Assembly (NCBI GenBank): GCA_013375405.1 | Contig: JABXJU010000021.1 | Span: 1 to 32,283, forward strand | Source: Candidatus Helarchaeota archaeon | GTDB taxonomy: Archaea > Asgardarchaeota > Lokiarchaeia > Helarchaeales > HEL-GB-A | Length of the DNA stretch: 32,283 bases | Direction of reading: 5' to 3' | Shown: positions 4,263 to 28,189 of the stretch, one piece after another | Position numbering within the stretch: position 1 is the stretch's first letter | Layout of the letters: every line of letters begins with the position of its first letter | Notes under the pieces: generated by a model | What the model was told of the DNA's origin: nothing | The model's input: only the letters and a program-made list of their open reading frames with translations | The model's database searches: none | Program-made: the position numbers and the translations under genes

Positions 4263-4368
4263 TGGCGGGCTCGACGGGAATCGAACCCGCGACCATCGGG
4301 TTAAGAGCTTCATCCAACCTGACTCTATTCAGATTGTCCGACGCTCTGCCTAGCTGAGCTACGAGCCC
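4263..4368 (-). tRNA. tRNA-Lys (CUU) with intron at position 30/31, CCA encoded
   Basis: The 5' end is at 4368. Acceptor stem GGGCTCG pairs with CGAGCCC, discriminator G at 4266, and CCA is encoded at 4263-4265. The D stem is GCTC/GAGC and the T arm is GCGGG TTCGATT CCCGT. After removal of 29 bases (4309-4337) the anticodon arm is a perfect TCGGG/CCCGA stem around CTCTTAA, anticodon CTT at 4303-4305. The mature body is 74 bases plus CCA. G73 is usual for archaeal tRNA-Lys. Confidence 0.93.
4309..4337 (-). other. Noncanonical intron of tRNA-Lys with full bulge-helix-bulge
   Basis: 29-base intron between tRNA positions 30 and 31. On the minus strand the precursor folds as outer helix AGAG/CTCT, 5' bulge GGA, central helix CGTC/GATG (one G-U pair), 3' bulge AAG and an intron hairpin CAATCTGA/TCAGGTTG (one G-U pair) with a six-base loop. 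Cutting after the second base of each bulge gives exactly the exon ends that restore the anticodon stem. Confidence 0.85.
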
Positions 4369-4455
4369 TTGATTGATAATAGAGCGAATAAAAATGATAT
4401 TTCGTTTGGATATACAAATATTTCTAAGATATTAATTTTGCTCTTACCATTGCTA

Positions 4456-5115
4456 TTACTTTTCAGCCATCCATTTCTTACATATCTCAACGGCTTCGAT
4501 TGGATTGGTCGCCGTCGCATCCGCACCAATTTTCTTGGCAAACTCTGGAGTTATTGGGCGTCCTCCAGCAATAATATTGAGAGTATCCCTTACGCCTGCC
4601 TCCTTTAATGCCTTCATAACATCTTTCATATATTCTCGTGTCGTACTTAAAAGTGCAGACATAGCGAGAATATCCGGTTTATACTTCTTAATAGCTTGTA
4701 CAAATTTCGTTGCACTCACCTCAATGCCTATATCATGTACCATAAATCCTGCTCCTATCATGAAAGACGAAACGATTGTCTTTCCGATATCGTGAATATC
4801 TCCTTTCACTGTGCCAAAAACAATAGTACCCAATAGTTTCGTCCCAGTTTCTGCAATATAGGGTTTTAATATCTCAATTGCACTTTTTGCAGTATCTCCA
4901 CACAGCATCAATTCTGAAAGGAAATATTGGTGAGTCTCATATAATCCACCTACCTTATTTAAGGCATCGCCTAAAGCTTTCAAAATATCTTGTGGAGGAT
5001 ATTCTTCCTTTATGGCTTGTTTAATGAGGCTTTCAGCCGTATCCGTATCAAATTCCACTATCGCCTTTTCCAAATCCCTTAGCAACGATTCACTCATACT
5101 CAACCACTGACCCAT
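4456..5115 (-). CDS. Methyltransferase cognate corrinoid protein (MtaC/MtbC/MttC type)
   Basis: 219 residues. An N-terminal helical methionine-synthase-like cap (about 8-90) precedes a B12-binding Rossmann domain with GDIHDIG at 105-111. H108 is the lower axial cobalt ligand. The later SALLSTTREYM and GGRPITPEFA stretches are typical of this family. These small proteins carry methyl groups from methanol, methylamines or methoxylated compounds between two methyltransferases. Neither a substrate methyltransferase nor an activating enzyme is in the window, so the substrate cannot be assigned. The ATG at 5115 and an ATG seven codons in (5097) are both possible starts. It lies between tRNA-Lys (same strand) and tRNA-Thr (divergent). 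Confidence 0.88.
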   Translation of the reverse strand: MGQWLSMSESLLRDLEKAIVEFDTDTAESLIKQAIKEEYPPQDILKALGDALNKVGGLYETHQYFLSELMLCGDTAKSAIEILKPYIAETGTKLLGTIVFGTVKGDIHDIGKTIVSSFMIGAGFMVHDIGIEVSATKFVQAIKKYKPDILAMSALLSTTREYMKDVMKALKEAGVRDTLNIIAGGRPITPEFAKKIGADATATNPIEAVEICKKWMAEK

Positions 5116-5204
5116 TGCTTGATCATAATTTAGTTGAAATTTTAAATAAACCTTAATAAACTTATAATTCTTAATAATTCAAGAATTTAAGACTTTGCAA
5201 GCCC

Positions 5205-5307
5205 GCCTCAGTAGCTCAGTTGGTAGAGCGGCAGCCTCGTAAGCTGTTGGACATGATCAAATCGCTTGGTCATGGATAAATCGCGGGTTCAAATCCCGTC
5301 TGGGGCT
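5205..5307 (+). tRNA. tRNA-Thr (CGU) with intron in the variable loop
   Basis: Acceptor GCCTCAG pairs with CTGGGGC (one G-U), discriminator T at 5307 (U73 is usual for archaeal tRNA-Thr), CCA not encoded. D stem GCTC/GAGC. Anticodon stem GCAGC/GCTGT with loop CTCGTAA, anticodon CGT at 5238-5240. T arm GCGGG TTCAAAT CCCGT. Removing 5251-5280 leaves the normal five-base variable loop TGGTC, the same as in tRNA-Lys, and a 73-base body. Confidence 0.92.
5251..5280 (+). other. Noncanonical intron of tRNA-Thr at position 46/47
   Basis: 30-base intron. It forms a hairpin CATGATCA/TGGTCATG (one G-U) with a seven-base loop, flanked by 5' bulge GGA, central helix TGTT/GATA (two G-U pairs) and 3' bulge AAT. 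The outer helix is not formed, so this is a relaxed bulge-helix-bulge. Cutting after the second bulge base on each side restores the variable loop. Confidence 0.75.
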
Positions 5308-5346
5308 TCATATAACAAAATTTAATTAAATTGAAAGAAAAAAAAT

Positions 5347-5431
5347 GCACGGGTGTCCGAGTCTGGTCAAAGGAGCTGGACCGAGGCTCCAGTGGCGAAG
5401 GCCTGCGAGGGTTCGAAGCCCTTCCCGTGCA
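5347..5431 (+). tRNA. tRNA-Leu (GAG) with cytosine at position 33
   Basis: Class II tRNA of 85 bases, no intron. Acceptor GCACGGG/CCCGTGC, discriminator A, CCA not encoded. Anticodon stem CTGGA/TCCAG around the loop CCGAGGC gives anticodon GAG at 5383-5385. The long variable arm has a GGC/GCC stem, and the T arm is GAGGG TTCGAAG CCCTT. Position 33 (5382) is C instead of the nearly universal U. It starts 39 bases after tRNA-Thr and may share its transcript. Confidence 0.88.
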
Positions 5432-5484
5432 CCTCTTAATTATTTAACGTATCACCATATGAAAAGATATCACAATTTATTCTA

Positions 5485-6368: not shown

Positions 6369-7565
6369 GTGTCAAATGTGTATGCAATTGGTGAAGCCTT
6401 ACTTGGAAGAGAACCCGAATTGGCGCATGTTGATTTAATTATTGGTGAAAAAAAAGGAAATGTCGGAATAGCTTTTGCGAACGCGCTCTCACACCTCAGT
6501 AAAGGACACACTCCCCTTCTCGCGGTCATTCGACCCAATTTACCATGTAAACCATGGACCGTGATCATTCCCAAAGTTACCATTGAAGGTTTTAGTCAAA
6601 TTACTAAAATCTTTGGCTCGGCTCAATATGCGGTAGCTAAAGCGGTCGCAGACGCAGTTGAGGAAGGTCTTATTCCGAAAGGTAAGATTGAGGAGTGGGT
6701 CATTATCGTAAGTGTCTTTGTTCATCCCCAAGCTAAAAATGATCGGAAAATTTACACGTACAACTACTCGGCCACGAAACTTGCGATTCGACGGGCGCTT
6801 TCGAATTATCCTCCCTATGACAAGATTCTTTATGATAAAGATCGTGCTAAACATCCGGTTCTTGGATTTAGAGTGCCGCGACTTTGGAGACCCCCTTACC
6901 TCCAAATCGCGTTGGATGTTCCTAGCAAAGAACGTACGCTTAAAATTATTAAGATGTTACCGAAAAGCGATCGGATCATCTTAGAAGTCGGAACGCCTCT
7001 GCTTAAACATTATGGCACTCAATTAATTGGTGAGCTCCGCGAATCTGTAAAAGATGCCTTCATTATTGCTGATTTGAAGACGTTAGATGTAGGAAAAGTG
7101 GAAGTCGACTTAGCATTTGAAGAAACTGCTGATGCGGTAGTGGCTGCAGGTTTAGCTTCCATTCAAACTCTAGATAAATTTGTCTATGAAGCAAGACGCC
7201 TTGGGATCTATTCATTTATTGATATGATGGACCTTGAATCTCCTCTAGAAAAACTAAAGAAGCTGAAAGATTTGCCCGATTTAGTCATTATGCATCGCGC
7301 CATTGATACCGAAGCGGATCAAAAACCTCGGTGGGATTTAATAAAAGAAATAAAAGAACTTGGTGTTAAATTAGTAGCAGTAGCTGGTGGAATCCGCCCA
7401 ATGACCACGGTAGATGCTTTGAAAAGTGGCGCTGATATTATTATCGTTGGCCGATATATAACCCAATCTAAAGATGTCGAACGCTCTACTCGTGAATTCT
7501 TAAAGATTTTTGAAGAGAAAAAGTATTGGAGTGATATTGATCTTTTCAGAGTGCATGAAGAATAA
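6369..7565 (+). CDS. fae-hps: Bifunctional formaldehyde-activating enzyme / 3-hexulose-6-phosphate synthase
   Basis: 398 residues, the usual length of the archaeal fusion. The Fae part (about 1-160) has AHVDLIIG with the catalytic-type His20, KGNVGIAFANAL and a middle segment typical of Fae. It joins formaldehyde to tetrahydromethanopterin. The Hps part (about 175-390) is an OMP-decarboxylase-like barrel with LDVPSKERTL, EVGTPLLKHYG, DLKTLDVG, and a closing VAGGIRP and ADIIIVGR. It interconverts formaldehyde plus ribulose-5-phosphate and hexulose-6-phosphate. In archaea it makes ribulose phosphate and captures formaldehyde. The GTG start sits close behind an AGGTTTAGG stretch. The phosphoglycerate mutase follows after 64 bases and a T-rich stretch. 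Confidence 0.95.
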   Translation: MSNVYAIGEALLGREPELAHVDLIIGEKKGNVGIAFANALSHLSKGHTPLLAVIRPNLPCKPWTVIIPKVTIEGFSQITKIFGSAQYAVAKAVADAVEEGLIPKGKIEEWVIIVSVFVHPQAKNDRKIYTYNYSATKLAIRRALSNYPPYDKILYDKDRAKHPVLGFRVPRLWRPPYLQIALDVPSKERTLKIIKMLPKSDRIILEVGTPLLKHYGTQLIGELRESVKDAFIIADLKTLDVGKVEVDLAFEETADAVVAAGLASIQTLDKFVYEARRLGIYSFIDMMDLESPLEKLKKLKDLPDLVIMHRAIDTEADQKPRWDLIKEIKELGVKLVAVAGGIRPMTTVDALKSGADIIIVGRYITQSKDVERSTREFLKIFEEKKYWSDIDLFRVHEE

Positions 7566-12437: not shown

Positions 12438-13898
12438 CTAAGTTCGGTGTAAGAAATACTTAAGTCCTACAGAAGTAGCTTCAATAAGTCGGGGTATTGC
12501 TGATATCATCCCAACTTTAAAAAAAGGGGGACTTAACCTCATCCAATTGAGAAACTCATTATGTTGCCTGGGATAAATATTAATACCCATTGCATAGGCT
12601 ACTAGCTCTTGGATATCCCATAACCTTATTGGATCGCCCATTTGTTTGAGCCCATCACCGTAGGTAAGAAGACATCCACCACAGACAGTGGTTACATCAC
12701 GAACTCCTCTAGATAGAGCATCATTTACGACTTCTTTTTGGGACTTAAATGCAAGATCTTGATTTAATGGAGATGTAAGGGAAGCCACCTTTTGAATTAA
12801 TTTTGCTGTTATTCCACAACACCGCGAATTCTCCCCTGAAAATGTCAATTCACGATAATCAACACCGGGAATACTTTTTAATATTTCGTGTTGAGATTCA
12901 GATAATTGACCTTTCCCTACTGTTACGTTTCTTTTTCCAGTGGAGCAAGAAGATAAAACCCCAATCGGACGGTTAATTTTTCGTTTAAATTTGATTTGTC
13001 CTGCCTTGATTAACTCTTCAAGATAATCTGAGAGGTATATAACTTCGATCCCTGCATCCTCTAGAATTGTACTTAATGGTAAATTAAATGTTTGATTCCC
13101 TCTTCCTGTTGGAAATTTTTTAGCAGAATACGCCATATAACACCCTGGACAAGCTGTAATTACTCTTTCTGGCTTTAATTTTGAAAGCAATTTCCCAGTT
13201 CGCTCTCCTATCAGGAGCGAACTCTTTATGAATCCAGCAACTAAAAAAAACCCACCACAACAAAATTCTGGTGTCCCAATTGTATGATATTTCACGTCTG
13301 CCTTATCAAATATTGCCATTGTTAACTGAACAAGATTTGGCATACCATATGTATGACCACATCCTGGCATGAATAATGTAGCTCCCTCCTTAATTTGATC
13401 AAACCTCGGATTCTTTGCTCGCTCTAATCGCCTTGTAACTTTTTCTCTATTCTTATCTTCAATCCATTTATTAGGATAGCCAAGATGACCGAAGATTCTC
13501 ATTATAATCCTCTGTATGGGAAAATCTGGATTTTTATACAAATATTTTCTTAATGAATACTCTGCAAATTGAAGTAGAAAAGGAGCTGCTCCTTTTTGTA
13601 ATAGAACAAATCTAAGCCCTATCATCAAAATTGCTTTACTAATCCCTTGCGGACAAAATTGGTGGCAGAATTCATCGACACAACATCTCCATATCACAGT
13701 CTTTGCATTTCCAGAGAGCGATGTTTTAAAATCGCTCATGATATATTCCTTGATTGATTTCATTATCTTTGTAGCAAGTTTAGGGTTAAATTTTTCTAAA
13801 TAACAATTTTGAAGACATAAACCACATACTTCACATTTTTTGACCGCATTTTTAAGTGCAGGGACGACTAAACGTAATTTTTTTTCCAGATCTAACAT
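12438..13898 (-). CDS. Iron-sulfur oxidoreductase of the HdrD/GlcF (CCG domain) type
   Basis: 486 residues. The first 4Fe-4S motif is C22-x2-C25-x2-C28-x3-C32. A second, irregular motif RCCVDEFCHQFCPQG follows near 70-85. Two CCG domains come next: GCGHTYG, FCCGG and CPGC in the first, then SCSTG, RCCG and CGGC in the second. In HdrB/D these bind a noncubane cluster that handles disulfides, and in GlcF/LdhB relatives they pass electrons. A C-terminal tail of about 60 residues has a hydrophobic helix. No flavin subunit is adjacent. GAGGT eight bases before the ATG fixes the start. It is divergent from the first Ras-like GTPase with a 158-base shared upstream region. Confidence 0.85.
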   Translation of the reverse strand: MLDLEKKLRLVVPALKNAVKKCEVCGLCLQNCYLEKFNPKLATKIMKSIKEYIMSDFKTSLSGNAKTVIWRCCVDEFCHQFCPQGISKAILMIGLRFVLLQKGAAPFLLQFAEYSLRKYLYKNPDFPIQRIIMRIFGHLGYPNKWIEDKNREKVTRRLERAKNPRFDQIKEGATLFMPGCGHTYGMPNLVQLTMAIFDKADVKYHTIGTPEFCCGGFFLVAGFIKSSLLIGERTGKLLSKLKPERVITACPGCYMAYSAKKFPTGRGNQTFNLPLSTILEDAGIEVIYLSDYLEELIKAGQIKFKRKINRPIGVLSSCSTGKRNVTVGKGQLSESQHEILKSIPGVDYRELTFSGENSRCCGITAKLIQKVASLTSPLNQDLAFKSQKEVVNDALSRGVRDVTTVCGGCLLTYGDGLKQMGDPIRLWDIQELVAYAMGINIYPRQHNEFLNWMRLSPPFFKVGMISAIPRLIEATSVGLKYFLHRT

Positions 13899-14056: not shown

Positions 14057-14596
14057 TTGGCTGAAAAGCTACTGAGATATAAAATGATTCTCTTTGGAGA
14101 TGCAGGAGTCGGGAAAACAAGCCTAGTTGAACGATTTATCAATAATAAATTTGAAGAATCGTACATCAGTACAATAGGATATAATGTATTCGAGAAACAA
14201 ATCGCTTATTTAAATGTCACAATATCTTTAATGATATTTGACATCGGTGGCCAAGAAAAATTCAGAGACTTAAGAAAAAAATACGCTGATGGAGCTAACA
14301 CGGCTTTTATCGTGTATGATATAACGGATATCGATTCGTTTAAAAACATTAGCCAGTGGATTAACGATTTATCTGAATTTTCTGGAGAAATTCCATTTAT
14401 TATCATTGGAAATAAAGTAGACCTCGAAGCTCAACGCAAAGTTTCCCAAGAGGATGCAAAGAAACATTGCATTTCTGAGATAGGTGCGTTAGATTTTTTC
14501 GAAACCTCGGCTAAGACCGGGCAAGGTGTCGAGGATGCGTTCGTCCAACTCGCTATATATACCTATAAAAAATATTTTCCCGAAAACACCCAATAA
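14057..14596 (+). CDS. Ras/Rab-family small GTPase (first of a pair)
   Basis: 179 residues with all five G boxes: G1 GDAGVGKT (14-21), G2 threonine T39 in STIGYN, G3 DIGGQ (62-66, the glutamine matching Ras Q61), G4 NKVD (119-122) and G5 ETSAK (149-153). The DIGGQEKFRDLRKKYADGA stretch resembles Rab-like proteins, with IGG in place of TAG. The C-terminus ends soon after the fold with no cysteine, so it is not prenylated and should be cytosolic or recruited by a partner. TTG start behind AAGGTCGG. The surface receptor follows after 186 bases on the same strand, and a close paralog lies beyond it. Confidence 0.95.
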   Translation: MAEKLLRYKMILFGDAGVGKTSLVERFINNKFEESYISTIGYNVFEKQIAYLNVTISLMIFDIGGQEKFRDLRKKYADGANTAFIVYDITDIDSFKNISQWINDLSEFSGEIPFIIIGNKVDLEAQRKVSQEDAKKHCISEIGALDFFETSAKTGQGVEDAFVQLAIYTYKKYFPENTQ

Positions 14597-14782
14597 TAAA
14601 ATGGAATTGAAAGCATAATTGAATTGAAATCCTTTTTAAAATATGTCAAATTAATATACTACCTTATAACTTTGTAATTTATAGGATTCTAACGATTTTA
14701 AATACATGAAATATAAATATAGAGCTCTAAAATCATAATAATTTCCTGGTTTTCCAGATTCGAGAAAAAGGGATAAGAAAAA

Positions 14783-17700
14783 ATGAAAATTCTAAAGAAT
14801 TTTATGATTATTTTCCTTTTATTGCTTATAATATTGCCCTTTTTTGGAAATAATTTTCTTTCCAATCAAAGAGAGGAAAATTATAAAGATTCAGAAATGA
14901 TTGAACCAATTCCGAAATTTAAGGAGGATATTTTAAATAAAAATACGGAGACTGAGTCGTTTGACGGAAAATTTATCGGAACTGGTCTGCCTGGCAACGT
15001 TACATTGATTTGTAATCAAAGTGGAAATGCAGGCCTTCTGGCTTCAATCTCAAGTTTTAATGTGCCTATTCCAACTTCTTGGGTAGCTAAACACGCAAAT
15101 ATCACCGTAACCAACGTCCTTAAAGAATCGGAGATTCTGGTAGTTGAAGAAGATGCAGTTGATGGAATATTTAGGGATACTGTTGAAACTAATTATGGGA
15201 TGAGCTTCAACATAATTACGACAGCCTTGTTGTACAACCTCTCAGTTTACTGGGACTCTATATGGAAATGCACGGGTGTCTTTGTAAGTGTTTTTAACGC
15301 AACACAGCAAGGTGCTGATCCCGTTCCTGATACAGAACTTTATAATGAGAGTTATCCACAACCAGCATCTTATAATGCATGGGCTGACTATAGTTTTACG
15401 TCTCCTGTATTATTAGACGCGCAGAATACCTATGCTAATGCCTTTTTCATCGTATTTAACGCTTCTAAGGATGGTAGCCAAGGCAATTGTCAATGGGTTT
15501 ATGAAGATGACGGTCCTGGAGATGATAATGGATACGCTGTGGAGGATCAAGGTTCATCTTGGTTTGTACACCCTTGGGACTTCACTTTAAGGTTAGGTTT
15601 GAGGAATAACTCTAGAACTCCATCAGATGTCGATTTAAAAATTAATGGCTCCTCCGTAATCGATACAACCCAAGCTGATGGGAGTTGGACTTCAACCTTC
15701 GAATTTTCCAATACCACTTTAAACTTTCAATTCTCTGCCAATTCCTCCGCCTATTTTCTAGTAGATTATTTCGTTACTTATAGCCAAACAAACACCCAGG
15801 TTGTGGGTACCACCTTTGAAGGACTGGATTCGAGTGCAATCGTTTGGAATGCGTCCTATGATGCAAATTTTCTGGCAGATTCCTTTGGAGAACGACTGGA
15901 ATTTTCTCTTCCTCCTTGGGAATTGGCAACAACTGTGTGGAACGAATCAAGCCTTCATAGTCAGTGGAACTCGACTAGTGATGGTTCGAAAAGAACAATA
16001 ACAATCTCCAATGCTGAAAATGGGACTTGGACTGTCCAGTGTAACGATACGAATTATGTTGAGAATGTTTATATTAAAAGATCAGGGATCACCGTTTCAG
16101 AAATAAATAGCACTGACACAGTCGAAATTTATGGAAATTTTACTGATATTCTAACAACAGGTGATGCCAATCTAACTATTTTTCCTCTCGTAGCAAATTA
16201 TAACGATACATTTGGGGAGGCTATCACGACCAATAAAACAATTAAATTCAGTCCTTTATGGACACCTACTAATACTTCAACAGGATCATTTATGTCTGCA
16301 AAATTACAGGTTACTTGGTTTAATGGAACATCTGCAGGGATAAAAACTTCCAATCTAACGGTTAATAATATTCCAACCAACCTAACTTACAAATCACATA
16401 CAAGTTCTGTTGACTCAGGGGATTCCATTTTCGTATACGTTAATTATTCCAATGAATATACTGGGGAACCGCTTATTGGTGCCGATTTATTAGTAAAAAA
16501 TAGCACCGACGACACCACGTGGCCGTCGCCCTTCCAAATATCTGAAGACTATTTAAATGGAACCTATAAGATTGAAATTTTAACATTTGGAGTAGTTGGG
16601 GGTACCCATTATTTATCTGTTAATTTAGCAAAGCCGCTCTATCTCTCAAGCGAAATTTCTGATATCAGCGTGACTATTGGGGGTATAGTCTCCAATATAA
16701 GTATCACAGCCCCAAATTGTATAGGATTAGATTCCATTAATCAAACTTATGCTTTGGCAAATCCGGCCCCATATCATAATTCTACCGTAGAAGTGACCAT
16801 ATTTTATTATGATAACCAAACTCTTGAACCGTTGAAAAATGGAATAATAACAGGTTCTTGGATTGGTGGAGGGCCTACAATTAGTTGGGTTCCAGCCTTT
16901 TTTGGCTATTATAATATAACAATTGATGTAATAGGATTTTACTCGGAAACAAATCACACCTTGAATATTCTGATCCAGCAAGGCGGGTATCTAGCCGCAG
17001 AACTAAATATTATTGTCCCTGTTAGGAAACTTCCAACACGAATCGAGCCATTACAACCATCTTATTCAGGATATTTACTAGAATCCCTCATTGTACAAGC
17101 GATATTTCAAGATACTCACCATGATGAAGCAATCCCTACCGTATACGATTTAGGAGGAAATTGCACAATTCGCATTGAAAATACAAGCCAACTCATGACA
17201 ATACTTTCCCCTACAATCGGAATTTATCAAATATTATTAGATCTTTCAATGTTAGGAGTTAGTGAAGGGCAATTTTACAACATGACTATCTCTGCTTTCT
17301 CATCAGAACACGAGTTTGCACTAACAAATGTTTCGCTATTTATTATCCCGCGGAATGAAGTAAATCTAATACTTTTAGCTGAACCTGAATATCTCTTGGC
17401 AGGAATCGACTTCAAATTATATGCAAGATTGACATATCTCAATGGAACCAACATTTCAAATGCAATATTAAACACTAAGGTCATTTTCCAACCTGGAGGA
17501 CTCGAAGATCCCTCAAACCAAATCACAAATTCCTCTGGGATTGCAGAAATAACGGGAGAAGCTCTTGTAAATATGAATTCCACTCAGATAATAATAGAAT
17601 ACCTTGGAACTACTAGTAACCAAAATATCACAATTACTAGCTCTGTTATCCCTATCATAAAGTTAAATAGCTCACTAATATTAAGCCCATTACCAGCCGA

Positions 17701-18817
17701 AATAATGCAGAGAGAAAATTTAGAGGTAACCGCTACTTTACAGATCAATGGAACACCTGCAGCAAATAAAATCATTACCTTTACCTTCGTTTATGATGAA
17801 TCAGCCAGTGATATAAAAGTTGCAGGGACCAATGCAGAAGGAAAGGCAACTATTACTTTAAAAGTACCATCTGGCATAACTAAAATAGGAATAACTGCTT
17901 CATATGATGAAGGCTTGACATATGTTAACGCTAGTAGTACTGAATCCATTGAAATTAATGTTATTTCTTTCTTCACTCTTATTGGAAGATCGTCTCCGAT
18001 CTGGGGGAGTATATTGGTAATGGTGGCAATCGGGGTGGTTACCTATCAATATAGGATTAGACGCCCAAAAAAACGGCGAGAGCTTATACATTTAGAGGAA
18101 ATCTCCTCAAAATTTGAAGATATCCAAAAAATGATTTATATAATGTTTTTACTGAAAAAAGGCGGGGTGGCTTTAGTGGAATATCCAGTATCTTCGACAG
18201 AAATTAACCCCGTACTTATCGCGGGTTTCTTAAATGCCATTACTTCATTTAAAGACGGAATAGTTAAACCCAAAGAAGGAATTCAAACGGGAGAAGCCTG
18301 GGAATTGGATTATGAAAATTTCAAGATCTTGTGGATTGATGGAGAATTGACATACTTTACATTGTTATCAGAAAAGAAACTCTCAAGTGCTACGAGAAAA
18401 AATACTGCCAAGTTGCTGGGAGATTTTGAAGCGCTTTATCGAAAAGATCTCACGAAATTTTTAGGTGACGTAAAAATCTTTCAACCCACTGCGAATAATT
18501 TGATTAAAAAGCATCTTGAAGTGGATTTGATCCTTCCTCATAAAGTTGACCTTACAAAATTGAAAGAAAATGAAAGTTTAACCAAAGTAGAATCAGCATT
18601 AACTGCGCTTGGAATAGCTATCGAAGAAGAAAGGGGGTATTTTTATCTTACTAAACTATTATCAACGGCATCTTCTGCACGTGGCGAATCCCATTTAAAA
18701 CTTCTTGGAGTTATTTATAACTTATGGAATCGAGGCATTTTTGCACCCATTACCACTAAGGAATCGGAATCTGATAGTAAGAAAAAATTAAAAACAGAGA
18801 AAGCGAAAGCGAAATAA
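14783..18817 (+). CDS. Giant cell-surface protein with longin-like cytoplasmic domain
   Basis: 1344 residues. A signal or anchor helix (about 7-23) is followed by about 1040 extracellular residues, rich in Asn, Ser and Thr, with very many N-x-S/T sequons. They look like stacked beta-sandwich (Ig-like) modules; the last, at about 975-1060, has the NAEGKATITLKVP pattern of bacterial Ig-like domains. One transmembrane helix (about 1073-1090) ends in a basic RIRRPKKRRE stop. The cytoplasmic part (about 1091-1344) has IYIMFLLKKGGVALVEYPV, then LIAGFLNAITSFKDGI, a strand FKILWIDGELTYFTLL and a helix LGDFEALYRKDLTKFLGD. This is the strand and helix order of longin or roadblock GTPase-binding folds, followed by a winged-helix-like tail and a lysine-rich end. 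It lies between two Ras-like GTPases. Confidence 0.8.
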   Translation: MKILKNFMIIFLLLLIILPFFGNNFLSNQREENYKDSEMIEPIPKFKEDILNKNTETESFDGKFIGTGLPGNVTLICNQSGNAGLLASISSFNVPIPTSWVAKHANITVTNVLKESEILVVEEDAVDGIFRDTVETNYGMSFNIITTALLYNLSVYWDSIWKCTGVFVSVFNATQQGADPVPDTELYNESYPQPASYNAWADYSFTSPVLLDAQNTYANAFFIVFNASKDGSQGNCQWVYEDDGPGDDNGYAVEDQGSSWFVHPWDFTLRLGLRNNSRTPSDVDLKINGSSVIDTTQADGSWTSTFEFSNTTLNFQFSANSSAYFLVDYFVTYSQTNTQVVGTTFEGLDSSAIVWNASYDANFLADSFGERLEFSLPPWELATTVWNESSLHSQWNSTSDGSKRTITISNAENGTWTVQCNDTNYVENVYIKRSGITVSEINSTDTVEIYGNFTDILTTGDANLTIFPLVANYNDTFGEAITTNKTIKFSPLWTPTNTSTGSFMSAKLQVTWFNGTSAGIKTSNLTVNNIPTNLTYKSHTSSVDSGDSIFVYVNYSNEYTGEPLIGADLLVKNSTDDTTWPSPFQISEDYLNGTYKIEILTFGVVGGTHYLSVNLAKPLYLSSEISDISVTIGGIVSNISITAPNCIGLDSINQTYALANPAPYHNSTVEVTIFYYDNQTLEPLKNGIITGSWIGGGPTISWVPAFFGYYNITIDVIGFYSETNHTLNILIQQGGYLAAELNIIVPVRKLPTRIEPLQPSYSGYLLESLIVQAIFQDTHHDEAIPTVYDLGGNCTIRIENTSQLMTILSPTIGIYQILLDLSMLGVSEGQFYNMTISAFSSEHEFALTNVSLFIIPRNEVNLILLAEPEYLLAGIDFKLYARLTYLNGTNISNAILNTKVIFQPGGLEDPSNQITNSSGIAEITGEALVNMNSTQIIIEYLGTTSNQNITITSSVIPIIKLNSSLILSPLPAEIMQRENLEVTATLQINGTPAANKIITFTFVYDESASDIKVAGTNAEGKATITLKVPSGITKIGITASYDEGLTYVNASSTESIEINVISFFTLIGRSSPIWGSILVMVAIGVVTYQYRIRRPKKRRELIHLEEISSKFEDIQKMIYIMFLLKKGGVALVEYPVSSTEINPVLIAGFLNAITSFKDGIVKPKEGIQTGEAWELDYENFKILWIDGELTYFTLLSEKKLSSATRKNTAKLLGDFEALYRKDLTKFLGDVKIFQPTANNLIKKHLEVDLILPHKVDLTKLKENESLTKVESALTALGIAIEEERGYFYLTKLLSTASSARGESHLKLLGVIYNLWNRGIFAPITTKESESDSKKKLKTEKAKAK

Positions 18818-18866
18818 ATTTATATTGTTAGAAATGAATTCAAATTCTTATTATTAGGTGAAGATT

Positions 18867-19391
18867 TTGGAATCCAATAAAAAAACCTTCCGTTATAAAT
18901 TGATTCTCTTTGGCAATATAGCAGTTGGCAAAACTAGTTTAGTTGAACGGTTTATTCATGATAGATTTAATGAAACCTATATCACTACTTTGGGCTATAA
19001 TGTATTTGAGAAACAGATTGTTCATGATAATAATATCTTATCGTTAATGATTTATGATATTGGTGGACAGGAAAAATTCAGAGAATTGCGGGAAAAATAT
19101 GCTAATGGGGCCGACATGGCCTTTATAATCTATGATGTTACGGATCGAAACTCATTTAACGCTGTCCCAGATTGGAAGAAAGATTTATTTGAATTTGCAG
19201 GAGAAATTCCTTTTATTATTATCGGAAATAAAATAGATCTTGAACATAAAATCCCTGAAGGAGACGCAATGAAACTTTCTTATGAAATAAATGCTTTAGA
19301 TTTCTTCGAAACTTCTGCTAAAACTGGACAAGGAGTAGAAAATGCCTTTAACCTTCTGGCAATAAAAACCTATGAATCAATGTCTAAATGA
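18867..19391 (+). CDS. Ras/Rab-family small GTPase (second of a pair)
   Basis: 174 residues, clearly paralogous to the GTPase at 14057: the same LVERFI, GYNVFEKQIV, DIGGQEKFR, EIPFIIIGNK and ALDFFETSAKTGQGVE blocks. G1 is GNIAVGKT (16-23), G2 T41, G3 DIGGQ (64-68), G4 NKID (121-124), G5 SAK (150-152). No C-terminal cysteine. I place the start at TTG 18867 because GGTGA lies at the right distance. An in-frame GTG at 18858 is itself part of that ribosome site. It follows the receptor gene by 49 bases, so the two are likely co-transcribed. Together they look like a receptor with its own pair of switch proteins. Confidence 0.95.
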   Translation: MESNKKTFRYKLILFGNIAVGKTSLVERFIHDRFNETYITTLGYNVFEKQIVHDNNILSLMIYDIGGQEKFRELREKYANGADMAFIIYDVTDRNSFNAVPDWKKDLFEFAGEIPFIIIGNKIDLEHKIPEGDAMKLSYEINALDFFETSAKTGQGVENAFNLLAIKTYESMSK

Positions 19392-20026: not shown

Positions 20027-21544
20027 ATGAGTAAAGAAGAGATCTTCAAAAAATTGAGAGAGATTTGTGGCGAAGATGATGTTTCTGTCGATGATGCGGA
20101 TTTAATAGCGACTGGTGACTGGATTGCGAGAGGACTCGAAGCGCTTTATAAAGATATAAGCTTTAAAGCAGGTTTTTTAGTCACCCCTAAAAATAAGGAA
20201 GAAATTGTTCAAATTGTTAAATATGCAAATGCGAACAAAATTCCCATCATTCCTCGTGCTGCCAACACCTCGCTAGGTGGTCAAGTGCTACCCATCAAGG
20301 AAAATACCATTATGATGGATTTTGGAAAACATATGAATAAAATCTTGGAAATTAACCTCGAAGAAGAATATATAGTCGTGGAACCTGGAGTTGAATTTTG
20401 GTACCTCCAGGAGGTTCTCGCAAAGGATGACTATTTTTTTCCAGCTGAGCCAGGAAGTGCGTTCTCTTGTATGATCGGAGGCATGGTTGGGAATAATGCG
20501 AGTGGTGCATCGAGTTTTCGCTTTGGAACTACGCGTGACTACGTACGAGGATTAGAAGTAATCATGGCTGATGGATCAATGATTCATACAGGTCATAAAA
20601 GGAATGAAAAGTCTGTTGCAGGTTATGATCTCACAAGTCTTTTTGTTGGAAGTGAAGGCACTCTGGGAATTTTCACTGAGATTTATTTAAAAATTCAACC
20701 TCTACCGAAAAATGAAGTTTCGATAGTGGTCGCCTTCAAAAATTTGGATAGTGCCGTTAAAGCCATTGAGATTATTCGCAAATTGGATATAGATTTAGCT
20801 TTACTTGAGTACGTCGATAGTATGACTATTGAAGGTATGAATGCAAATTTGAAGTATCGATTGAAGAAGGGCATACTCAAAAAGAAAATTAAAGTACCCA
20901 AACGGGATGGCACATTACTGATTAGACTAATTGGTCCAAGGTATAAAGAAGCTCTACAGAAACTTCAGGAGGCAATGAATAATTCTGAAATTTTTGGTGA
21001 AAATTTACCAAAAAATGTAGTATTAGAGGAATCTATTGACCAAAAATATCTTTGGGATGCACGTCATTATGCTGGCCCTGGCATTGCACGCACCATGGAA
21101 CCCCCAAAAATCCCGAGGATGTTTGTTCCTTCAGTGATGGATATCGCAGTGCCTCCCTCAAAAATTGCTGAATTCCTAAAACAAGCAAAGGCAATTTCAC
21201 AAGAATTTAACATTATCACAATAACATTTGGACACATCTTTGATGGCAATGTGCATATGATTTCAGCTCAGAACGTCACAGAAGAAAATGTAGGTAAAAT
21301 AAAAGCGTATCAAGAAAAAATTTTAGAACATGTATATTCTTTAGGTGGAACTATCACAGCTGAGCACGGCGTGGGATTATGGAAACAACACTTTTTGGAA
21401 AAAGAATATGGAAAAGCCACTATGGACGTTATGAAGAAGATCAAACAAGTATTAGATCCCAATAAAATTCTGAATCCTGATAAAATGGGTGTGGGAGAAA
21501 TCCCTGCAATTGTAAATTTTGAAGGGTTAGGTGAGACAAGATGA
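20027..21544 (+). CDS. FAD-linked 2-hydroxyacid oxidase (GlcD / D-lactate dehydrogenase type)
   Basis: 505 residues, in the GlcD size range. The PCMH-type FAD domain (about 45-225) has FLVTPKNKEEI, IPRAANTSLGG, the GGMVGNNASGASSFRFGTT loop (151-169) and VAGYDLTSLFVGSEGTLG. The C-terminal oxidase domain ends with GHIFDGNVH and TAEHGVGLWK (about 445), the conserved substrate-side histidines of this family. It oxidises a 2-hydroxyacid such as D-lactate or glycolate. The exact substrate is not readable. GGTGG seven bases before the ATG. The stop overlaps the next start (ATGA), so the two subunits are made together. Confidence 0.92.
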   Translation: MSKEEIFKKLREICGEDDVSVDDADLIATGDWIARGLEALYKDISFKAGFLVTPKNKEEIVQIVKYANANKIPIIPRAANTSLGGQVLPIKENTIMMDFGKHMNKILEINLEEEYIVVEPGVEFWYLQEVLAKDDYFFPAEPGSAFSCMIGGMVGNNASGASSFRFGTTRDYVRGLEVIMADGSMIHTGHKRNEKSVAGYDLTSLFVGSEGTLGIFTEIYLKIQPLPKNEVSIVVAFKNLDSAVKAIEIIRKLDIDLALLEYVDSMTIEGMNANLKYRLKKGILKKKIKVPKRDGTLLIRLIGPRYKEALQKLQEAMNNSEIFGENLPKNVVLEESIDQKYLWDARHYAGPGIARTMEPPKIPRMFVPSVMDIAVPPSKIAEFLKQAKAISQEFNIITITFGHIFDGNVHMISAQNVTEENVGKIKAYQEKILEHVYSLGGTITAEHGVGLWKQHFLEKEYGKATMDVMKKIKQVLDPNKILNPDKMGVGEIPAIVNFEGLGETR

Positions 21545-22680
21545 GTGAAGAAATGATCAAATATTATTATCTATGTAATGTTTGCGGAACTTGCCGGCAA
21601 CAATGCACAGTCTTTCGCACCAATCTTGTTGAAACGCTGTCACCAAGAGCTAGAGTCACTCTAGCTGGCGAACTTTTCTTAAATAAAATGGGTATAACCA
21701 AAAAGACTATAGAAGCATTCTTTTCATGTGTCCTTTGTGGAATTTGTGAGAATATGTGTCCATCAGGTGCAAAAGTATTAGAGACCATTAAGGCTACTAG
21801 AAGATATATCATCGAAGAAGGTAAAGGTCCAGAAGGCATTTCTAAGTTGTTCGATAGCATTATGGAAGAAAAAAACATTTTCCTCCTAGATAATGAAGAT
21901 CGAATGAGCTGGGCAGATGATATAGAAGATAAAATTAAGGACAAAATAAAGAAAGAAGCAGAAATCGCATTGTTCGTTGGCTGCCAGGAATCATTCAAAG
22001 GCTCCCTCTATAATATCCCGGAGTCATTAGTCCTCATACTAGAAAAAGCAAATCTCGATTTCACACTATTAGGCGATGAAGAATGGTGTTGCGGCGCTCC
22101 TTATTTTCTTATGGGAATTAAAAACGAGAAAGTCGAAGAAATTATGAAGCACAACATTGAAAAGATGAAGGATTTAGGAGTAAAACAGATTCTCACGACT
22201 TGCCCTGGCTGCTACTTAGCTTGGAACGAAGAATATAAAAAATTCGATAAGGAATTACCTTTTGAAATCCTTCACTCAACTGAAATTATCGCCAACCTTA
22301 TTAAAGAAGGTAATATAAAAATTGAGAAAGAATATAAAAAGAAAGTCATATTTCAGGATCCCTGTGACCTAGCACGACATAGTGACGTGTTTGAGGCGCC
22401 TCGAACGATACTTAAAAGTATCCCTGGATTAGAACTTATCACACTGGAACGTGAAAAAATAGATGCATACTGTTGTGGTGGGGGTGGGCTCTGCAAAGCA
22501 ACTTACCCCGAAATCGCAACTACCATTTCTAAAGACGTTGCTAAAATCTATAAGGACAGTGGTGCTGAAGAAATTATCACTGCGTGCCCAGCATGTTTTG
22601 ATAACTTGATAATTGGGGTTGAAGGAATCGAAGACATCGATGTAATCGATATCCATAGCTTAATTGTCGATTTATTTTAA
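21541..22680 (+). CDS. Iron-sulfur subunit of the hydroxyacid oxidase (GlcF/HdrD type)
   Basis: 379 residues. Two 4Fe-4S motifs are at C12-x2-C15-x2-C18-x3-C22 and C63-x2-C66-x2-C69-x3-CP (C73). Two CCG domains follow: FVGCQES, WCCGAPYF and CPGCY, then DPCDLARHSD, YCCGGGGLC and CPACF. In GlcDEF and related lactate dehydrogenases this subunit takes electrons from the flavin subunit to a quinone or another carrier. It lies four bases into the end of the FAD subunit gene, which fixes the partner. It is related to but distinct from the longer iron-sulfur protein at 12438, which lacks an adjacent flavin gene. No third GlcE-like subunit is present. Confidence 0.92.
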   Translation: MSEEMIKYYYLCNVCGTCRQQCTVFRTNLVETLSPRARVTLAGELFLNKMGITKKTIEAFFSCVLCGICENMCPSGAKVLETIKATRRYIIEEGKGPEGISKLFDSIMEEKNIFLLDNEDRMSWADDIEDKIKDKIKKEAEIALFVGCQESFKGSLYNIPESLVLILEKANLDFTLLGDEEWCCGAPYFLMGIKNEKVEEIMKHNIEKMKDLGVKQILTTCPGCYLAWNEEYKKFDKELPFEILHSTEIIANLIKEGNIKIEKEYKKKVIFQDPCDLARHSDVFEAPRTILKSIPGLELITLEREKIDAYCCGGGGLCKATYPEIATTISKDVAKIYKDSGAEEIITACPACFDNLIIGVEGIEDIDVIDIHSLIVDLF

Positions 22681-25520: not shown

Positions 25521-26672
25521 TTAATAATAACACTCAATTCCTCGTTCTCTCAATTTATTTAAAATTACAATGGCGTCCTCCTTTAATGGATTCCGCTTTA
25601 AATGCAGTCTTTTCAGATTCGGAAGTTTTATTAATGAATCCGGAAGGCTTGTTATGCGATTACTAGAAAGACGTAAGATAGTAAGACTTGTGAGACATTC
25701 AATCACCTCAAGATCCCTAATCTCATTACAACTTAAAAGTAGATATTTCAAGTTTTCTAAGTGCTCTAACCCCTTAAGTGTAGTTATTCTATTATAACTC
25801 AGATCTAACTTTTGAAGGTTACATAATGTTTCCAGTCCCTTAATATCTCTAATTTTATTGTTTCCAATAACTAACTCTTTAAGGTTTGTTAGGCATTCCA
25901 ATCCCCTAATTTCATCAAGCCTTTTAGCGTTCCGATAACCTTCATGAAAGTGATTTGATTCCGAACGATCTCGATTATGAACGATATCAATTAAACCTAA
26001 CAATTCTGTCAGACCTTCCTCCTTAAAAATTTCTCTGCCCTCAAATTCCCGTTTAATTATGGGATTGGGCGCACGACCCTCAGAATTTAGGTGATCTTTG
26101 TAACTGCAAAAAGCCTGATTGTGACTTAAGTCTAATTTTTGAAGGTTGCTCAGTGCTTCGAGCCCCTTGATCTCGGTAATGTGATTATGGTTTAGATCCA
26201 AAACCTGCAGGTTCGCTAAAGAGGACAGCCCTTGAATCTCCTCGATATGATTACTGCTCAGATCTAAGATTTGGAGGGCTGATAAATTCTCAAGCCCCCC
26301 GATTGCGGTGAGGCGATTCCCCTGGAAGTCCAGCTCTCGGAGGTTCGCGAATCTATCTAAACCCTTGATTTCTGTAATGTGGTTGCCCCAAAGAATCAGC
26401 TTTTCAAGCGTTTCGAGGTTTTTGAAACGTGTAAAACCCCAAATATCTGAGATATCGTTATTGGTGAGATTTAGTTCTCGAAGATGTTCTAAATGTTCTA
26501 AACCAATGATATCGGATAACTGTCGAAGAGTAAATACTGGAGGGCCATGGCGATTATCATAATAAAAGTCGCCTGCCAAATTTAATTTCCCCTCAATAAT
26601 AGGATACTTCCCCTCTGCTCCCACGATAAATACATATTCTTCATATTCCCTTATATTATTTTCTCCGGGCAA
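25521..26672 (-). CDS. Leucine-rich-repeat protein, SDS22-like
   Basis: 383 residues made almost wholly of 22-residue repeats with the pattern L-x-L-x-x-N-x-I-x-x-I-x-GL, about a dozen of them. Repeats 1-6 (about 50-195) and a second block (about 250-375) are separated by a 45-residue non-repeat insertion with many charged residues and histidines. This form is like SDS22 and other intracellular LRR proteins, which act as protein-binding scaffolds. No signal or membrane segment is seen. TTG start 15 bases after the stop of the cysteine microprotein gene, with GAGGGAG upstream, so the two are one unit. The binding partner is unknown. Confidence 0.88.
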   Translation of the reverse strand: MPGENNIREYEEYVFIVGAEGKYPIIEGKLNLAGDFYYDNRHGPPVFTLRQLSDIIGLEHLEHLRELNLTNNDISDIWGFTRFKNLETLEKLILWGNHITEIKGLDRFANLRELDFQGNRLTAIGGLENLSALQILDLSSNHIEEIQGLSSLANLQVLDLNHNHITEIKGLEALSNLQKLDLSHNQAFCSYKDHLNSEGRAPNPIIKREFEGREIFKEEGLTELLGLIDIVHNRDRSESNHFHEGYRNAKRLDEIRGLECLTNLKELVIGNNKIRDIKGLETLCNLQKLDLSYNRITTLKGLEHLENLKYLLLSCNEIRDLEVIECLTSLTILRLSSNRITSLPDSLIKLPNLKRLHLKRNPLKEDAIVILNKLRERGIECYY

Positions 26673-26987: not shown

Positions 26988-27298
26988 TTTTTACTTCCCG
27001 ACATTTCTCTATGATTATAAAGGAGGAGACGGTATTTAAATAAACTGATGATAACCATTTACGCATGTATTAATATATAGACTAAAAAGGAGATTGTTGA
27101 ACTCTTCCCAATGGATAACAAGTATATATATTAAGAAATAAAACTAAAATTATTTATAAACGATAGATCTTACTATTGTTAAAGAAAAGATATAATCGCT
27201 TATTATCACATAAATCATTTTCATTAAACCTCTAAATATGGTTTAGGACTTGGAAAGCGAAGTATATCTTGTTAGATCCAGAATTCGGGTGAATCACC
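26988..27298. other. 311-base divergent intergenic region with TATA-like sites
   Basis: No convincing gene. TATTTAAATA at 27033-27042 suits the minus-strand pair. TTTATAAA at 27153-27160 could serve the plus-strand GTPase, with a leader of over 100 bases. Short frames of about 10 codons are seen but have no support. Confidence 0.4.
27287..27292 (+). promoter_or_regulatory. Ribosome site that decides an ATT start
   Basis: GGGTGA with a six-base gap to ATT at 27299. The same GAATTCGGGTGAA stretch precedes the CBS gene ATG at 29975, which shows this is a genuine local ribosome-site form. A TGA in the GTPase frame overlaps it (27290-27292), so no earlier start exists. Confidence 0.6.
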
Positions 27299-28189
27299 AT
27301 TAATGAGTTTGATTATCTTTTCAAAATAGTCGTTGTAGGTGACGGCGGAGTAGGCAAGACCGCACTTACTGTTAGGTTTGCCGAAGGAGTCTTTAGAGAC
27401 GACTATAAGATGACTATTGGTGTCGATTTTTCTATAAAAACGATAACAGTACCTACCAACGGTGAGAGCCGCCGAGTTAAGCTTCAAATTTGGGACACAG
27501 GTGGGCAAGAGCGGTTTTCTTACGTTAGACCTTTATACTATAAGGGTGCCGTAGGTGGATTAATAGTTTTTGACCTAACAAACCGGAAAAGTTATGAAAA
27601 TTTAGACCGATGGTTCTCTGAAATTGCAAATAATTGTGTCTCAATACCTCTAATGTTAGTCGGAAATAAGGCAGACCTTCCAGATCGCGAAGTTGCACAA
27701 TCTGAAATCCAAGCTATTGCCAATAATCACAATATTACTTATTATGAATCTTCCGCAAAATCCGGTCAGAGCGTTAATACCATATTTGAACAATTATCTA
27801 CAAACCTTGTATTAATAGAAGAGGGGCAAGTTGCCCAAGAAGAGTATGATGCAGAAACATTAAGGCATAAGGAATATATTGAAAAATATATGTCCTTAGC
27901 GGAACAAGCCTATGATAAAATAAACAAACTAGATTATCAATCAGCATTACAGGTTTTAAAGCAAGCTTATTATTACGCGAAAGAGATTGAATATCAAGCA
28001 GGTAAAAAGTGGATAGAAGAACAGACTCAACTCATAATCCAAATTTTAAGACAACAAGAAAGTAAATTAATTCAAGAGGCCGGAGTACATATGTACTGTG
28101 CCTACTGCAACCAGCGTTATCGGGTTTCAAAAGTTGGCAACATTCGGTGTCCTACATGCGGAAATTATCTATCTGGAGAAAAAATGTAA
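27299..28189 (+). CDS. Rab-like GTPase with helical extension and C-terminal zinc ribbon
   Basis: 296 residues if started at ATT 27299, the only codon that both fits the ribosome site and includes the P-loop. The GTPase is at 1-172: MNEFDYLFKI, G1 GDGGVGKT (14-21), T39, DTGGQERF (66-73), NKAD (123-126), SSAK (151-154). This is closer to Rab than the other two in the window. A helical region (about 180-262) has LAEQAYDKINKLDYQSAL and AYYYAKEIEYQAG, like an MIT or TPR hairpin. The end is a zinc ribbon with C267, C270, C284 and C287 (CAYC, CPTC). The fold order GTPase-helices-ribbon is not one I know. No prenylation site. It stands alone, with a coiled-coil gene convergent. Confidence 0.9.
   Translation: MNEFDYLFKIVVVGDGGVGKTALTVRFAEGVFRDDYKMTIGVDFSIKTITVPTNGESRRVKLQIWDTGGQERFSYVRPLYYKGAVGGLIVFDLTNRKSYENLDRWFSEIANNCVSIPLMLVGNKADLPDREVAQSEIQAIANNHNITYYESSAKSGQSVNTIFEQLSTNLVLIEEGQVAQEEYDAETLRHKEYIEKYMSLAEQAYDKINKLDYQSALQVLKQAYYYAKEIEYQAGKKWIEEQTQLIIQILRQQESKLIQEAGVHMYCAYCNQRYRVSKVGNIRCPTCGNYLSGEKM

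Follow-up and report, generated by a model that had tools for sequence, protein, structure and literature searches.

The closest working analogy to the locus described here is the actinobacterial conservon (CvnA-D). As far as they are described in the accessible parts of PMC13343842 and PMC4316618, conservons encode together a sensor, a roadblock GTPase-activating protein (GAP), a likely guanine nucleotide exchange factor (GEF) and a Ras-like GTPase; the same part of PMC13343842 presents a CvnB homologue (MfpD) as a GAP and a CvnC homologue as the likely GEF. In this study we analysed a window of 32,283 nt from Candidatus Helarchaeota archaeon (GCA_013375405.1, contig JABXJU010000021.1, positions 1 to 32,283, forward strand), in which two Ras-like GTPase genes flank the gene of a receptor-like surface protein of 1344 amino acids (aa) with a predicted longin domain in its cytoplasmic tail. 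Like the conservons, as far as the accessible text goes, the locus encodes a putative membrane sensor, a roadblock/longin-type part and a Ras-like GTPase together. However, the conservon sensor CvnA is histidine-kinase-like, whereas no kinase domain was found among the Pfam matches of the 1344-aa protein, and the conservon roadblock is a separate protein, whereas here sensor, longin and winged helix form one chain accompanied by two GTPases. Because it has no kinase and combines these parts in one chain, the window locus is not a member of the conservon family. No separate CvnB/CvnC-like roadblock genes lie beside the window GTPases either; the neighbours of the trio match iron-sulphur (Fe-S) and flavin adenine dinucleotide (FAD) oxidoreductase families.

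Other systems resemble the locus in part. In MglA-MglB of Myxococcus and Thermus the roadblock protein MglB is soluble, whereas the window longin is the tail of a receptor. The alpha subunit of the signal recognition particle (SRP) receptor has an NG GTPase domain after its SRX longin, where the window protein has a winged-helix-like module and no NG domain; the SRP receptor has a targeting role, of which there is no indication for the window protein, and its partner GTPase, SR-beta, is Arf-like. TRAPP and Ragulator-Rag are multi-subunit complexes, and the window GTPases have neither the Rag C-terminal domain nor prenylation cysteines. For Asgard archaea, the accessible part of PMC10933270 describes separate roadblock and longin proteins (structures 8yqg and 9jue belong to this group of Asgard proteins) as well as fusions to GTPases, whereas the window longin is the tail of a membrane receptor; the word 'transmembrane' is absent from the main text of that paper. 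No description of longin-tailed Asgard receptors was found in the literature, a weak absence given the partial coverage. Two points go beyond the finding of the initial annotation: how common this receptor tail is among Asgard archaea, and the few loci that still indicate the longin partner of a given GTPase.

On balance we lean towards the view that this is an Asgard locus of Helarchaeota type in which small-GTPase signalling is coupled to a receptor. Most likely the tail would serve the adjacent GTPases as the place where they dock at the membrane and are regulated, under control of the ectodomain, a role that reaches beyond the fold, topology and gene association described below. The three genes lie on the + strand, separated by 186 bp (GTPase 1 to receptor) and 40 bp (receptor to GTPase 2), and their arrangement is as the initial annotation had reported it:

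14057..14596, + strand: GTPase 1, Rab/Ras-like, 179 aa (Pfam Ras, 2.1e-49; TTG start assumed)
14783..18817, + strand: surface receptor-like protein, 1344 aa (open reading frame, aligned with five full-length relatives at 49-73% identity)
14783..14866, + strand: N-terminal hydrophobic segment, signal-peptide-like, residues 1-28 (hydropathy up to 2.6)
14867..17995, + strand: ectodomain with many N-glycosylation sequons, residues 29-1071
17741..17935, + strand: MG4-like macroglobulin domain, residues 987-1051 (26.9 bits against Pfam MG4, whose cut-off is 24.7)
17996..18052, + strand: single transmembrane helix, residues about 1072-1090 (read from sequence; below the hydropathy cut of 1.6)
18131..18532, + strand: predicted longin domain, residues about 1117-1250
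18539..18748, + strand: predicted winged-helix-like module, residues about 1253-1322 (secondary structure of a model with high predicted local distance difference test score, pLDDT; order of elements read by eye)
18858..19391, + strand: GTPase 2, Rab/Ras-like, 177 aa (Pfam Ras, 3.1e-44; GTG start assumed)

Between residues 27 and 1062 the ectodomain has 46 sequons, where shuffled sequences give 17.3 +/- 3.6, and it is probably glycosylated. Its membrane-near part is the MG4-like domain; against the PDB it gave weak matches only, the best being intimin (E 0.028). Directly after the transmembrane helix follows a basic stretch, RIRRPKKRRE, and then a tail of 254 aa. The named full-length relatives of the receptor (P0003, P0004) are from Helarchaeota.

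For the tail, a model from a 47-row alignment reached a pLDDT of 91.9 and superseded an earlier AF2 (AlphaFold2) model from six close tails (49.8). It predicts a helix, then beta-beta-alpha-beta-beta-beta-alpha-alpha, the topology of a longin, and finally several helices with one strand, ordered much as in a winged helix. Its structural matches, all spanning model residues 13-151 only, are the longins Sec22b (12.0), Vamp7 (11.7), synbindin (11.1), Ykt6 (11.0) and Fuzzy (11.0), a Lokiarchaeal roadblock-longin protein (10.8) and roadblock proteins from 9.9 down. The predicted structure supports what had been proposed before, namely that a surface protein with one membrane pass and many sequons bears a longin fold. 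At the cuts used the longin and roadblock models of Pfam and NCBIfam gave no match to the tails, and no sequence relative in the PDB came under E 0.1. Matches to PF20740 (TP0453) were weak in three of the six close tails (best 6.8e-6), occurred in one of 29 diverse tails and reached 21.3 bits in the window tail, under the cut-off of 27 bits; they are treated here as probably due to chance.

Conservation peaks in helix 1 of the longin, where L-x-x-G-F-x-x-A is invariant and the mean top-residue frequency is 0.65 (other longin elements, 0.35-0.63). Since the dimer of roadblock proteins is formed by the central helix region, as stated in the accessible part of PMC10933270, it is a fair inference that the receptor tail dimerises via its longin domain. 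The winged-helix-like module also raises the idea of a membrane-held gene regulator, in which the winged helix would bind DNA and the longin merely dimerise; a MarR match in one of the 29 diverse tails (E 0.05) and a homologue, P0224, named winged-helix transcriptional regulator by its source (one of 104 homologues, 52% query coverage) point the same way. We regard this as very improbable: the window tail itself matches no DNA-binding family, the winged-helix elements are weakly conserved (0.34-0.39, against 0.35-0.65 across the longin elements), and winged helices also mediate protein contacts, as in ESCRT-II (endosomal sorting complex required for transport) and PCI proteins.

Both window GTPases carry the G1-G5 motifs of the Ras superfamily, with the P-loops GDAGVGKT in GTPase 1 and GNIAVGKT in GTPase 2, and they share 65% identity; the best PDB match of GTPase 1 is Rab-1A (6.2e-35). 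Neither has a cysteine in its last six residues, and hence neither has Rab-type prenylation cysteines, which bears out the earlier remark that a prenylation site is missing from both. They are single-domain proteins whose Ras match ends at residue 166 and 169, respectively, with no Rag-type C-terminal roadblock dimerisation domain. A sister origin of the two is neither shown nor rejected (approximately unbiased, AU, test, p 0.142), and the free tree groups GTPase 2 with those of L101 and L102 (97/90). Given the single domain, the missing Rag C-terminal domain and the AU result, we found no evidence for the suggestion that they are paired or heterodimeric outputs.

In a 48-row tree of the GTPases fetched, among which alone clade membership was assessed, the window pair falls inside a starred clade of eleven (95/84). 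The other nine members come from three genomes, G003, G004 and G005, the inner eight being starred at 100/97, and the same genomes hold all six matches above 190 bits in a GTPase scan of 227 genomes. The tails of G003, G004 and G005 have their nearest counterparts in named Helarchaeota proteins, at 65% (to P0136), 39% and 32% identity, respectively; because of the 65% identity of one of its tails to Helarchaeota P0136, G003 is probably Helarchaeota-like.

The members of this clade tend to lie beside longin genes. Eight of the 15 top GTPase matches are in G003-G005, and for seven of these eight (five of six loci) a separate longin match lies no further than 3 kb away; by hand count the same holds for 25 of the 126 other GTPases in these genomes. 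In G004, a separate longin match lies no more than 1 kb from 17 of the 69 Ras-like GTPases, against a rotation mean of 3.9 +/- 2.1, and none of 1000 rotations reached 17; within 3 kb the count was 23, against 8.2 expected. The window clade accounts for five of these 17, so that in G004 the linkage extends beyond it. This count used 69 of 81 GTPase rows (98 bits or more) and 117 of 143 longin rows (50 bits or more) and leaves out three qualifying longin rows on contig C1, all of them more than 3 kb from any listed GTPase. Distances were taken between matched stretches, a longin was called separate if the length of its open frame differed from that of the GTPase, and contig ends were set at the last match except for C3, C5 and C11, which makes the chance estimate a little too high on the remaining contigs. 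These results support a genomic association, beyond chance, of the window GTPase clade with longin genes in three related genomes.

It might be possible that the window trio is a local accident, with GTPase copies having landed on either side of an unrelated surface-protein gene. Asgard genomes are rich in GTPases (G004 has 69 at 98 bits or more), the two window GTPases may be sister copies, which the AU test does not reject, and other members of the tail family do not keep the gene order. The clade, though, lies beside longin genes in five of the six other loci brought in by GTPase score, well above the background in the same genomes, and we consider such an accident improbable.

Several results weigh against the reading of receptor-coupled GTPase signalling. 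No small GTPase lies within two genes of any of 62 tail genes (60 loci, L041-L100, chosen by tail score; 44 of the 62 have a gene call on both sides), and therefore a linked GTPase is missing from most of the receptor family. Nine further tail loci yielded one case (L120, G008), in which a gene for a 358-aa GTPase-domain protein lies two genes upstream of that for a 3031-aa tail-bearing protein. A weakly GTPase-scoring neighbour in L041 reads as an IF-2-type translation factor and was set aside. Longins can serve roles other than GTPase binding. No longin gene lies within 3 kb of the clade GTPase in L101. Seven of the 15 top GTPase matches are outside G003-G005, and the five that were mapped, in four loci (L106, L107, L108, L110), have no longin match within 3 kb; in L108 a 21-bit longin match lies seven genes from the GTPase. 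The clade was seen in only three other genomes, picked because they hold it. With E-value cuts of 1e-20 and 1e-12, linkage within 1 kb was weak in G003 (1/21, expected at most 0.43) and G005 (4/45, expected at most 1.29), the expected values being simple products and not simulations, and G042 and G043 each gave one close GTPase-longin pair, read by eye. According to the accessible part of PMC10933270, operons of this kind are not general in MK-D1. Hence the linkage case rests on the window clade and G004 and is not a rule of the phylum. The three-gene order predicted to be conserved was not found as a unit, but a looser form of it holds, with the window GTPase clade beside longin genes.

Loci resembling that of the window have the GTPase and longin parts in common and differ in the membrane part and in what follows the longin, a pattern to be expected if GTPase and longin make a functional contact. 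L121 (G004), fetched for its adjacency and thus an example outside the count of seven in eight, encodes a 1570-aa receptor with a signal-like start, 49 sequons, a helix at 1102-1128 and a longin at 1140-1264, and a clade GTPase gene follows 12 bp after it. L103 has two longin membrane proteins between two clade GTPases and two more longin membrane proteins after them. In L132 (G005) a 140-aa longin protein lies between two GTPases, with gaps of 16 and 190 bp, and these GTPases fall in a clade other than the window's.

Related clusters were observed as well. In L104:1351-8645, six membrane proteins with C-terminal longins are encoded on one strand with one short opposite-strand gene among them, and two GTPases adjoin. 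In L105:8418-13332 (G004) the gene of a Vps4-like AAA ATPase, read from sequence, adjoins a GTPase-GTPase-longin-GTPase-longin cluster, and in L122 (G004:C5:944000-958000) a 216-aa GTPase-like gene (65 bits) lies tail-to-tail with that of a 1488-aa protein with a C-terminal longin. An Arf-like GTPase gene overlaps or abuts the gene for a protein of about 186-187 aa in L050:12930-14017 and 17 other Loki-class loci. This partner has no Pfam match and reads as a longin/roadblock with a winged helix; 19 of 21 of its homologues adjoin a GTPase-scoring gene, and for 19 of the 62 tail genes (18 loci) the pair is no more than five genes away. We do not count it as support, because it was on the opposite strand in the maps seen and is probably one ancestral inheritance.

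As a family, the receptor tail is very widespread in Asgard archaea, yet it has no name in the copies of Pfam and NCBIfam searched. Its profile matched all 83 genomes in the class of G001 at E<=1e-3, some of these matches being the longin part alone, and 152 of the 227 genomes of the phylum at E<=1e-10. A region search with the tail gave 104 homologues of receptor length, of which 69 have a hydrophobic N-terminal stretch and 99 a hydrophobic helix (cut 1.3) in the 75 aa that precede the longin; one, P0218, is named roadblock/LC7 domain-containing by its source. A third form, with a C-terminal longin after several membrane helices (computed for L103 gene 11 and L104 gene 3), was linked to the receptor tails at a probability of 98.9, and the soluble 251-252-aa longins of L105 align less surely (51.5 and 84.0). 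Tentatively, the tails might mark a receptor class across the Asgard phylum, in which varied outer parts share one interchangeable longin-winged-helix tail that acts on Rab-like switches, most of these GTPases being unlinked and few adjacent.

The same longin-winged-helix pair occurs in a second, apparently soluble class of about 457 aa (388 proteins, of which 120 are listed, P0007-P0126). Precomputed PF04212 (MIT) matches in 13 of the 120 listed members make a GTPase-ESCRT link possible, and they also bring in the main rival explanation: a sorting or scaffold tail that serves ESCRT-like or cytoskeletal partners or receptor dimerisation, with the GTPases in the same pathway and no contact to the tail. 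Consistent with such a tail, the L121 receptor ends in helical repeats (read by eye), one of the 29 diverse tails has a Pfam PCI match (1.5e-5), and most receptors lack a linked GTPase. Asgard longins joined with Vps28-C, adaptin appendage, immunoglobulin (IG)-like and helix-turn-helix (HTH)/PCI domains have been described (PMC10936438, section 6), and longins without a GTPase role are noted in the accessible part of PMC10933270. However, this explanation leaves unaccounted for why the window GTPase clade lies beside longin genes of different membrane types, and we think it rather unlikely.

If receptor-coupled signalling holds, the glycosylated outer part would meet a ligand, a surface or another cell, and the single helix would carry the signal to the cytoplasmic longin domain. 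The longin might pair via its conserved first helix, as roadblock and longin domains usually do, and the pair would offer a docking face to both neighbouring Rab-like GTPases. Such docking would place the GTPases at the membrane, because they have no lipid-anchor cysteine of their own. A ligand-dependent change of the receptor could then alter their nucleotide state, in a GEF or GAP role, and the winged-helix-like module may bind an effector or complete the GTPase site. The transmembrane switch first proposed for this locus is partly supported, by the predicted longin on the surface protein and by the link between the clade and longin genes; the trio order is not supported as a conserved unit of the receptor family, and the paired outputs lack evidence.

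The trio is flanked on both sides by metabolic genes, and promoter-like and terminator-like sites at the locus were near shuffle level and not informative:

12438-13898, opposite strand to the trio: CCG/Fe-S protein, before the trio
20027-22680: FAD-linked oxidase and another CCG/Fe-S protein, beyond the trio

Further along the window, at 27293-28189, lies a third Ras-like GTPase, whose C-terminal stretch resembles HypA (a match below cut-off); it probably starts at a non-ATG codon, because its P-loop is upstream of the first ATG. A 383-aa leucine-rich-repeat protein is encoded nearby at 25521-26672 (- strand). The window also holds a formaldehyde-activating enzyme fused to a domain of the orotidine monophosphate (OMP) decarboxylase/HUMPS family (6369-7565) and three tRNA matches (4266-5433), one of which is reported by ARAGORN; those at 4266-4368 (- strand) and 5205-5307 (+ strand) are 103 bases each and may contain introns.

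Asgard archaea are the group closest to eukaryotes, and their genomes encode Rab-like GTPases by the dozen, for which partners and inputs have still to be found. The window locus and its look-alikes offer concrete candidate receptor-GTPase pairs, and even a few such loci may still reveal which GTPase goes with which longin protein. If the longin tails indeed formed a receptor class across the phylum, receptor-controlled Rab/Ras signalling would have existed before eukaryotes, and the class would be a source for membrane-tethered longin regulators. If the pairing seen in the window holds, receptor-coupled control of small GTPases would predate eukaryotes.
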